Source: Casimicrobium huifangae
Lineage (GTDB): Bacteria; Pseudomonadota; Gammaproteobacteria; Burkholderiales; Casimicrobiaceae
Direction: 5' to 3'
DNA length: 64,000 bases
Assembly (NCBI RefSeq): GCF_009746125.1
Contig: NZ_CP041352.1
Coordinates: forward strand, 1,658,436 to 1,722,435
Shown: in pieces, positions 16,748 through 19,823 of the stretch
Layout: each line of letters begins with the position of its first letter
Position numbering within the stretch: the first letter of the stretch is position 1
The notes under the pieces: model-generated
The model's database searches: none
The model's input: only the letters and a program-made list of their open reading frames with translations
Told to the model about the DNA's origin: nothing
Made by a program: the position numbers and the translations under genes

Positions 16748-16994
16748 CGCATCGCACCAGTGCGCAGAGCCTCCCTACAATCCGTCGCGTGAATTCATTG
16801 TTTGCAGTGCAGCGCCGATCGCAGCGGAAGTTGGCAGTCGGTTGCCCTGACATCTTTTCTTTGAAATGGCCTTTGGATGAGGCGTACCGCCCAATTTCGC
16901 GGAAACTCAACTTCTCAGCAAAATGGTCGCTAGCGCCCATGAAATGGTGCTTTGATGGAAAAGCCGTACGACCACCATGTGTCGGGAAGGTGCC
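16748..16994. other. nagZ-uvrC intergenic region
   Basis: About 245 bp without a convincing gene. A small inverted repeat GCGCA/TGCGC lies near 16749-16766, right after nagZ. Long frames on the opposite strand only mirror uvrC. The uvrC promoter should be here but I cannot point to one. Confidence 0.3.
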
Positions 16995-18827
16995 ATGACT
17001 GACGCCATTGACGACACCCTGAAATCCTTGCCGCAGCGCCCCGGCGTCTACCGCATGATTGGCGCCAACGCAGCGGGCGAAGAGAGCTTGCTCTACGTCG
17101 GCAAGGCGAAGAACCTGAAGAGTCGGGTTTCGAGCTATTTCGTCAAGAGTGGCCACAGCGCGCGCATCCAGATGATGATCGCGCAGATCCGGCGCATCGA
17201 GACGACTGTCACGCGCAGCGAGGCCGAGGCGCTGCTGCTCGAAAACAACCTGATCAAGACGCTGGAGCCGAAGTACAACGTCGTCTTCCGCGACGACAAG
17301 AGCTACCCCTACCTCTGCATCAGCGGCGACCCGTTCCCGCAACTGCGCTTCTTCCGCGGCAAGCCCGACAAGAAACATCAATACTTTGGCCCGTTCCCGA
17401 GCGCGTGGGCGGTGCGCGAGGGCATCAACACACTGCAGAAAGTTTTCCAGCTCCGCACCTGCGAGAACACCGTTTTTGCGCACCGCTCGCGGCCCTGCAT
17501 GCTGGCGCAGATCGGGCGCTGCACAGCGTCCTGCGTGGGGCAGATCAGCGAGGCCGACTACGCGGCCGACGTGAAGAGCGCAGCCATGTTCCTGCGCGGC
17601 CAGCAGGACGAAGTGACGCACGAGCTGAACGCGCAGATGGAGGCCGCGGCCGGTGAACTCGCATTCGAAAAGGCCGCCCGCATCCGCGACAAGATCGCGC
17701 GGCTCAACCGTCTCGTTAGCAAGCAGTTTGTATCCAGCGTCGCGGACCGCGATGTCGATGTGCTCGCGCTGGTGCAGACCGGTGGCATGATTGCGGTGAA
17801 CATCGTCGTCATCCGTGGCGGCCAGCATGTGGGCGACCGCACGCACTTTCCGGTGAAGAACGCCAGCTCCGAGCCGATGACCGACAAGGAGCTGACCGGG
17901 GTGCTGGAGAGCTTCATCGCGCAGCACTACATCGGCCGCGAAGTGCCCGGCATGATCGTCTCCACACTGGAGTTCGACGTCGAGGCGCTGGCCGAAGCGC
18001 TCTCCACGCAGGCCAACAGCAAGGTCAGCGTGCTCTGCAACCCCATCGGCGAAAAGCGCGTGTGGCTGCAAATGGCGGAGGAGAACGCGCGCCTCGCCAT
18101 CGCCGCGAAGCAGCGCCAGAGCGACACTGGCAACGAGCGCCTGCAGGCGCTGATCGTCGCGCTCGATCTGCCGGAAGGCACGCAGCGGCTGGAATGCTTC
18201 GACATCTCGCACACGATGGGCGAGGCCACGGTCGCCAGTTGCGTCGTATTCGACCAGAACGCCATGCAGACCGGCCAGTACCGCCGCTTCAACATCCAGA
18301 CGGTGAGCGATGGCGACGATTACGGTGCGATGAAAGAGGCGCTCACCCGCCGAGCTGCGCGTATCGCGAAAGAGGAAGTGCCGCACCCCGATGTGTGGGT
18401 GATTGATGGCGGCAAGGGGCAGGTGGGTATCGCCGCGCAGGTGCTCGCCGAGGCGGGCCTGCACGACATCGTTCTCTTCGGCTCTGCCAAGGGCGTGGAG
18501 CGCAAGAAGGGCATGGAGCAGATCGTGTTCCCCGACCGTGAAGACACGGTTCGTCTACCCGCCGATCATCCCGGCCTGCACCTCATCCAGCAGATGCAGG
18601 ACGAAGCGCACCGCTTTGCCATCCAGGGCCACCGCGCCAAACGCGCCAAAGCGCGGGAAGGCAGCGCGTTGGATGACATCGAAGGCATCGGCCCCCGCAA
18701 ACGCGCCGCGCTGCTAAAGCAGTTCGGCAGCGTACGCGGCATCGCCAGTGCCAGCGTAGAAGACATCAAGCGCGTGCCGGGGATTTCGAGTGAATTGGCT
18801 GAGCGAATTTATGGGGTGTTGCATTGA
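16995..18827 (+). CDS. uvrC: Excinuclease ABC subunit C
   Basis: 610 residues. An N-terminal GIY-YIG nuclease domain (PGVYRMIG, LLYVGKAKNLKSRVSSYF), a UVR motif near residue 200 (AAGELAFEKAARIRDKIARL), the RNase H-like nuclease core with RLECFDISHTMGEATVASCV and VIDGGKGQVGIA, and two C-terminal helix-hairpin-helix repeats (DIEGIGPRKRAALLKQFGS, KRVPGISSELAERIY). It makes both incisions in nucleotide excision repair. ATG 16995 follows GGAAGG; an earlier in-frame ATG at 16977 is less likely. Confidence 0.96.
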   Translation: MTDAIDDTLKSLPQRPGVYRMIGANAAGEESLLYVGKAKNLKSRVSSYFVKSGHSARIQMMIAQIRRIETTVTRSEAEALLLENNLIKTLEPKYNVVFRDDKSYPYLCISGDPFPQLRFFRGKPDKKHQYFGPFPSAWAVREGINTLQKVFQLRTCENTVFAHRSRPCMLAQIGRCTASCVGQISEADYAADVKSAAMFLRGQQDEVTHELNAQMEAAAGELAFEKAARIRDKIARLNRLVSKQFVSSVADRDVDVLALVQTGGMIAVNIVVIRGGQHVGDRTHFPVKNASSEPMTDKELTGVLESFIAQHYIGREVPGMIVSTLEFDVEALAEALSTQANSKVSVLCNPIGEKRVWLQMAEENARLAIAAKQRQSDTGNERLQALIVALDLPEGTQRLECFDISHTMGEATVASCVVFDQNAMQTGQYRRFNIQTVSDGDDYGAMKEALTRRAARIAKEEVPHPDVWVIDGGKGQVGIAAQVLAEAGLHDIVLFGSAKGVERKKGMEQIVFPDREDTVRLPADHPGLHLIQQMQDEAHRFAIQGHRAKRAKAREGSALDDIEGIGPRKRAALLKQFGSVRGIASASVEDIKRVPGISSELAERIYGVLH

Positions 18828-19672
18828 GTAGTGCCGACACCCCCGTTGCGGAACCTCAGCGAGACATGCAGCGGTTGCTTGGACGTTGCATGATACATCT
18901 GCAGCAGTATGAAAAATTGCTTAAGGCAATCCTTCGATCGAGTAGCGTAGTCACGAATCTGAGCATCGGGCAACCGCCCGACGTCGTGTGGCGGAACGAA
19001 TCCGAAGGCAGCACGCTCGGCATACTCGTGAAGAATTTTCTAGAGGAGATGATTCCGCGTAGTGTCGAATCGGACTTTGATTCGGGCAGCGGCGAAGACG
19101 CCGCGCCGCTGTGTGTGTCGTTCTCTACGGACTTTCGGTTTGTCATGGAGACGGACAGGCGTGCCTCTGTCGAGTACGGACTGCGGGAGCTTGTCAAAGT
19201 GCGAAACGGGTTGGTTCACTCCTTCATTGATCAATTCGACATTGGATCTGTCGAAGGTTGCCTCGCTGCCGCGGATTCGCTAAGGCAGACTTTTGAGCTG
19301 ATTGATGCGAAATTTCTTGAGTTGCGCGGTTATGCAGAGTCACTTGATCAGATGCGCAGGGCATGTGGTGAGTTCATCCAGCCGCCTAGGTTTCAAGACA
19401 TCTTCGACGGTATCAGGCCTGACGGTAAAGTAGATTGGCCGTCGGCAGGTATCGTTGCTGCCTTGCGGGAAGCAGCTGAGCAACTTGGAGGGCGCGAGTG
19501 GACGCCACTGAGTGAAGCGGTGGAGTGGATATTGGAAAAGTATCCTGAGCAGACACCGGGTCGATATGGCTGCCGGACTTGGCGACAAGTTGTTCAAGAG
19601 TCGAAGGCATTCAAGATCAAGCGTGAACCCAATGAGACTGGACAGCGGCATCACTATTACGGCAACCGCTAG
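18824..19672 (+). CDS. Putative HEPN ribonuclease fused to OST-HTH (LOTUS) domain
   Basis: 282 residues. The helical N-terminal part (about 15-170) contains VKVRNGLVHSF: Arg127 and His132 with Asn128 form the R-x4-H motif of HEPN RNases. The C-terminal part (about 205-272) reads WTPLSEAVEWILEKYP then RYGCRTWRQVVQESKAFKIK, the pattern of the OST-HTH/LOTUS fold, which binds RNA. A TTG start overlaps the uvrC stop. Base composition is clearly more AT-rich than uvrC (roughly 27 G/C in the 60 bases from 18901), suggesting transfer. It is followed by a repeat and a toxin-antitoxin pair. Domain calls are by eye; the substrate is unknown. Confidence 0.6.
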   Translation: MSSADTPVAEPQRDMQRLLGRCMIHLQQYEKLLKAILRSSSVVTNLSIGQPPDVVWRNESEGSTLGILVKNFLEEMIPRSVESDFDSGSGEDAAPLCVSFSTDFRFVMETDRRASVEYGLRELVKVRNGLVHSFIDQFDIGSVEGCLAAADSLRQTFELIDAKFLELRGYAESLDQMRRACGEFIQPPRFQDIFDGIRPDGKVDWPSAGIVAALREAAEQLGGREWTPLSEAVEWILEKYPEQTPGRYGCRTWRQVVQESKAFKIKREPNETGQRHHYYGNR

Positions 19673-19675
19673 CTA

Positions 19676-19782
19676 GTAGGGCGGAACGCTCGCGGTTCCG
19701 CCGAACGCGGTGGCGCGCTGTGACCGCGGCTGAACAGCCTTCGGCGGTGGCACGAGGCGGGACCGCAAGCGTCCCGCCCTAC
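19676..19782. repeat. BIME-like pair of inverted REP elements
   Basis: 19676-19702 (GTAGGGCGGAACG...) and 19756-19782 (...GTCCCGCCCTAC) are inverted copies of one palindromic unit; each can also fold on itself (GCGGAAC with GTTCCGC; GGCGGGAC with GTCCCGCC). A single further copy lies at 61595-61622. This is the layout of REP/BIME elements spread by RAYT transposases. Confidence 0.75.
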
Positions 19783-19783
19783 G

Positions 19784-19823
19784 TTGTTCTGCTTCGCTAT
19801 CAGTGCTAGTATTACCAAGTAAT
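19784..19823 (+). promoter_or_regulatory. Promoter and operator of the AbrB/PIN module
   Basis: TTGTTC (19784-19789), 17 bp, TAGTAT (19807-19812) forms a sigma-70-type promoter. ATTAC-CAA-GTAAT (19811-19823) is a perfect inverted repeat overlapping the -10 and presumed start, well placed for repression by the AbrB-type antitoxin. Confidence 0.55.

Follow-up and report, generated by a model that had tools for sequence, protein, structure and literature searches.

A mobile gene behind uvrC in Casimicrobium huifangae encodes a putative HEPN endoribonuclease joined to an OST-HTH/LOTUS domain

What does the gene that follows uvrC so closely in Casimicrobium huifangae encode, and does its product act with its neighbours or on its own? 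The window, meaning the whole 64,000-nucleotide stretch analysed here, carries at positions 18,824–19,672 of the forward strand an open reading frame of 282 residues, for which an earlier note had proposed an imported, RNA-targeting effector built from a HEPN domain and a LOTUS domain. The reading frame is as that note gave it, and the motif R127-N-G-L-V-H132 lies at the residues named there. Its TTG start (18,824–18,826) and the TGA stop of uvrC (18,825–18,827) share the letters TTGA, so that the two genes do overlap, by 4 nt. The next in-frame start is an ATG at residue 15, and the TTG start is probably right because initiation at this ATG would lose the conserved Q12 that lies upstream of it. 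No promoter-like site was found upstream of the gene. With a GC content of 54.2% (GC3 0.587), it is indeed richer in AT than uvrC (63.6%, GC3 0.841) and the genes downstream (60–64%). With modest confidence, we lean towards regarding it as a self-contained, horizontally mobile gene for a HEPN endoribonuclease that its LOTUS domain would aim or license and that would be used in conflict.

The C-terminal part of the protein can be assigned directly. Residues 205–271 (19,436–19,636, forward strand) match the Pfam OST-HTH profile with an E-value of 4e-07 and 30.2 bits (cut-off 23.8), and the same profile is matched in 31 of 32 homologues. The model of this domain has the winged-helix fold of the OST-HTH domain of NE0665 (2kpm; TMt 0.59, rmsd 1.9 Å, probability 1.00) and also matches a second structure, 2kzv; the sole hit in a sequence search of the PDB with the window protein was likewise a weak OST-HTH one. 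The LOTUS half of the earlier proposal is therefore upheld both by the profile and by the fold. RNA binding has been predicted for OST-HTH domains (PMC2848206) and, by analogy, residues 205–282 of the window protein would bind RNA.

The family is widely but unevenly distributed. No relative of the gene was found in 99 related genomes, and 369 genomes of the class yielded another close relative and a HEPN-only one. The latter, a protein of 188 residues (L091:1480-2046, reverse strand), is devoid of OST-HTH and carries its R-N-x3-H motif as RNRLIH. Ten plasmid records carry relatives, none occurs in 50,697 phage records, and an ICE-borne homologue used as query matched no E. coli genome at the nucleotide level. 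Genome contigs contained at least 145 related loci, 80 of which were kept, nearly all of them from Proteobacteria. Absence from the 99 relatives, together with the presence of related loci elsewhere, supports the suggestion that the gene was imported. Within the family the window protein forms an isolated long branch, and purifying selection is seen in the nine pairs compared (dN/dS 0.03–0.46). One copy, which shares 40% identity with the window protein, lies on a Nocardiaceae-labelled MAG contig binned as Actinomycetota (L088) and could reflect either long-range transfer or mis-binning. Another, on a plasmid of Rhodobacter sp. CZR27 (L006), is split across two annotated genes and appears to be broken; a transposase is found nearby.

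Clustering of neighbouring genes placed 42 of 88 examined loci in an ICE-type (conjugative element) context. In the examples inspected, the gene lies between a STY4528-type replication gene and a PFL_4669/topoisomerase block, and an annotated P. veronii plasmid shows the order STY4528 replication protein, family gene, PFL_4669, topoisomerase III. A further 18 of the 88 loci belong to an element that encodes a serine recombinase and a DUF2924 protein, in some cases with a gene for a HEXXH-type peptidase. The HEXXH-motif neighbour had been considered as a tandem paralogue and was rejected as a clustering artefact. Defence-type genes are also encountered: type I HsdR is found close to four loci, of which one has the order HsdM-HsdS-gene-HsdR-YgjP, one or more lie near a CBASS set (E1/E2, DncV-like cyclase and patatin), and others near a DNA methyltransferase, Nmad3 or HipA. 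Some copies occupy chromosomal sites in whose vicinity no element gene is found. Beyond mobile-element backbone genes, no partner gene recurs widely in the 88 loci, and neither a conserved antitoxin nor a recurrent small partner gene was found among them; no nucleotidyltransferase antitoxin was seen among annotated or scanned neighbours. What the earlier note called an undescribed system is thus better regarded as a single gene, of which the domain architecture appears to be undescribed.

The position of so many copies beside the replication gene and the PFL_4669/topoisomerase block of ICE-type elements raises the question of whether the enzyme serves the element itself, cutting transcripts for replication or partition and thereby tuning copy number or transfer. 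Location in a replication and maintenance block counts against the conflict reading, since it fits element housekeeping equally well. Such a regulator is nevertheless unlikely. The same type of ICE also occurs without the gene, including in the host's own genome, where an ICE-type backbone (G000:C1:126676-127890, L149) has an empty slot of about 330 bp between the flanking genes, holding no relative, even though a copy is present elsewhere in that genome. The slot is accordingly accessory. Moreover, other copies reside in RM operons, in CBASS neighbourhoods and at the chromosomal sites that lack element genes.

In the window, the resident uvrC (16,977–18,827, forward strand) provides context rather than a partner. 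Among the 88 family loci, uvrC is present in that of the window only, and in sister species it is followed each time by different, unrelated DNA (L100–L112), for instance BrnT/BrnA in L101 and a Schlafen AlbA_2 protein (SLFN_AlbA_2/NB-ARC) in L106; in several of them this cargo resembles defence or toxin genes. The 3′ side of uvrC thus appears to be a site that receives variable cargo within the genus, and the gene sits in it, from position 18,828 onward. A functional tie to uvrC was rejected on these grounds: the coupling described in the earlier note is true of the local DNA and does not extend to any other family locus. The tail of uvrC was also considered as a special attachment site and rejected, its last 21 nt being not unusually conserved (72nd percentile) and having no second copy in the window. 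In one sister species the gene directly after uvrC (L109:3356-4102, forward strand) encodes a protein of 248 residues with the motif RNELAH and no Pfam match, accompanied by a BrnA-like gene; it may be an independent HEPN protein occupying this site.

Downstream of the gene, the toxin–antitoxin unit reported earlier was found as a VapBC-type pair, in which Pfam identifies an AbrB/MazE-type antitoxin and a PIN toxin. Between this pair and the gene lies a palindromic repeat of 113 bp (19,673–19,785) with a very stable predicted folding (z −5.6). It has 26 matches in the genome, including partial and reverse-strand ones, several of which are full-length at 78–83% identity, and three copies follow uvrC in another relative (L108). 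HEPN toxins are common in toxin–antitoxin systems (PMC3710099), and the position of the gene upstream of the VapBC-type pair might suggest that it encodes the toxin of such a unit, controlled either by these genes or by its own LOTUS winged helix acting as an autorepressor. This is improbable, as no other family locus contains the pair, for which reason it was rejected as a partner, and no small partner gene recurs. In addition, VapB has a promoter-like site of its own and is separated from the gene by the 113-bp repeat.

The nature of the N-terminal domain (residues 1–190; 18,824–19,393, forward strand) is less immediately apparent. AlphaFold2 models show helices at residues 9–41, 52–60, 65–76, 110–137 and 143–185. 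R127-N-G-L-V-H132 (19,202–19,219, forward strand), which corresponds to the Rx4H catalytic motif of HEPN domains, has its R127 and H132 near the end of helix 110–137, and E30-x3-K34 (18,911–18,925, forward strand) corresponds to the acidic/basic motif of the same type. In catalytic HEPN domains, Rx4-6H has its R–H at the end of helix 3 and is accompanied by a polar residue after the arginine and, commonly though not universally, by Ex3[KR] (PMC3710099); the acidic residue belongs to helix 2 in the published scheme, whereas in the present model it lies in the first long helix. R127, N128 and H132, which the earlier note had put forward as the active-site motif, and E30-x3-K34 are invariant in an alignment of 32 sequences, and the three motif residues and E30 remain so down to homologues 33% identical to the window protein. 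RN-x-[LI]-V-H is present in all 87 loci where the motif region is readable, so that the Arg/His pair, the loss of which in homologues the earlier note had considered decisive, is retained throughout. This conservation is partly selected, because the homologues were collected with two search patterns, of which one contained the LVH stretch. Free of this selection are the HEPN-only relative and an unbiased tblastn search, in which R127, N128 and H132 are again invariant among seven aligned sequences, the window protein included.

The N-terminal half has no significant match in Pfam, NCBIfam, PADLOC or PHROGs. Below threshold, all ten N-terminal domains tested match the HEPN family DUF3644 over the motif region (E 0.002–0.14), the best reaching 18.4 bits against a gathering cut-off of 27.6, and some of them match RiboL-PSP HEPN. 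Sub-threshold matches to the Swt1 HEPN profile occur among the homologues, and the HepT-like profile is weakly matched by five of 32 family members. A profile–profile comparison (hhalign) with RiboL-PSP HEPN places R/H on R/H with a score of 22.3, a fourfold excess over the highest-scoring of 41 controls (5.5); its probability is only 17% despite an E-value of 3e-4. The fold search with the N-domain model found no significant match to solved HEPN structures, or to any other fold; the HEPN toxins 7ae8, 7bxo and 6m6u appeared with E-values above 1 among unrelated helical bundles. A PDB sequence search with the N-domain returned nothing and a viral fold search nothing significant. Taken as a whole, the comparison makes HEPN identity well supported but not structurally proven, and the invariant motifs, the hhalign E-value and the OST-HTH match bear out the combined HEPN and LOTUS reading. 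A subset of HEPN domains is believed to lack catalytic activity (PMC3710099), and the fold might have been retained here for RNA binding only; such domains, however, usually lose R/H, and with R127, N128, H132 and E30 all invariant we regard this as quite improbable. That the domain is an unrelated helical bundle with a coincidental RNxxxH, as the lack of a significant Pfam or fold match might suggest, is very improbable in view of the two invariant motifs, the weak match of ten out of ten N-domains to a HEPN family at the right place and the margin of the profile–profile score over its controls.

Returning to a self-contained, mobile endoribonuclease, we infer for the window protein an RNase activity, dimerization, RNA specificity and a defence role. 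Residues 1–190 would form a HEPN domain, probably dimerizing, in which R127, N128 and H132 with E30 and K34 would cut RNA independently of metal and leave a 2′,3′-cyclic phosphate. By analogy with NYN-OST-HTH proteins, the OST-HTH domain most likely supplies RNA recognition to the endoribonuclease: residues 205–282 would bind a class of RNA and either deliver the substrate or free the nuclease once the bound RNA appears. Since no antitoxin is conserved, activity is presumed to be limited by the requirement for a suitable RNA and by low expression, as would be expected from a TTG start directly behind uvrC with no promoter-like site upstream. The gene probably has a role in conflict, be it among mobile elements or against phage, and its likeliest use would be to cut RNA of a phage, a plasmid or the host upon entry of a competitor. 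It is a tentative possibility, and a more specific one, that the protein is a one-gene immune effector in which LOTUS senses invader or damaged RNA and licenses HEPN to cut RNA. If so, an RNA-sensing effector of this kind would be a portable defence for mobile elements, dispensing with guide RNA, second messenger and antitoxin.

In animals, LOTUS domains organise the RNA of germ granules, while their bacterial relatives, and the role of these, are little studied. A compact HEPN-LOTUS RNase spread by ICEs would provide a tractable system for finding out which RNA bacterial LOTUS domains recognise, and might prove to be a conflict effector of a new, single-gene kind. NCBI names some homologues 'OST-HTH/LOTUS domain-containing protein', so that the presence of OST-HTH in them is already known; the HEPN half and the HEPN-LOTUS pairing appear to be undescribed in the open-access literature, where no published description of such a fusion was found. 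No OST-HTH fusion is mentioned in the main text of the HEPN survey (PMC3710099), nor does the survey that defined OST-HTH (PMC2848206) describe the present pairing. The window protein matches none of the PADLOC models, and its homologues give only scattered weak matches.

Several known families come close to one or the other half of the protein. With DUF3644/EC042_2821 and RiboL-PSP-HEPN it shares Rx4H and, in the profile alignment, an upstream conserved acidic residue. EC042_2821-type proteins also occur in RM operons, sometimes with a fused N-terminal wHTH (PMC3710099). However, the similarity to these families stays below Pfam thresholds, and the partner domain of the window protein is a C-terminal OST-HTH, with neither a DNase nor an L-PSP domain as partner. 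The MntA-HepT (MNT-HEPN) toxin–antitoxin system has in common the HEPN RNase motif and the weak HepT-like match noted above, but the window protein possesses an additional OST-HTH domain and its neighbours are uvrC and VapBC-type genes, not a nucleotidyltransferase. A parallel in overall design is offered by the bacterial NYN/LK-nuclease-OST-HTH proteins of the Limkain b1 type, in which an N-terminal RNase and a C-terminal OST-HTH domain are likewise encoded by a single gene without conserved partners (PMC2848206), and the C-terminal domains of the two groups are detectably related. Almost all bacterial versions of OST-HTH are fused to DUF88/NYN (PMC2848206). None of the 32 family members matches the NYN domain, and in contrast to the Limkain b1-type proteins, the present family would have a HEPN rather than a PIN/NYN domain as its RNase, and it travels with mobile elements, conjugative ones among them.
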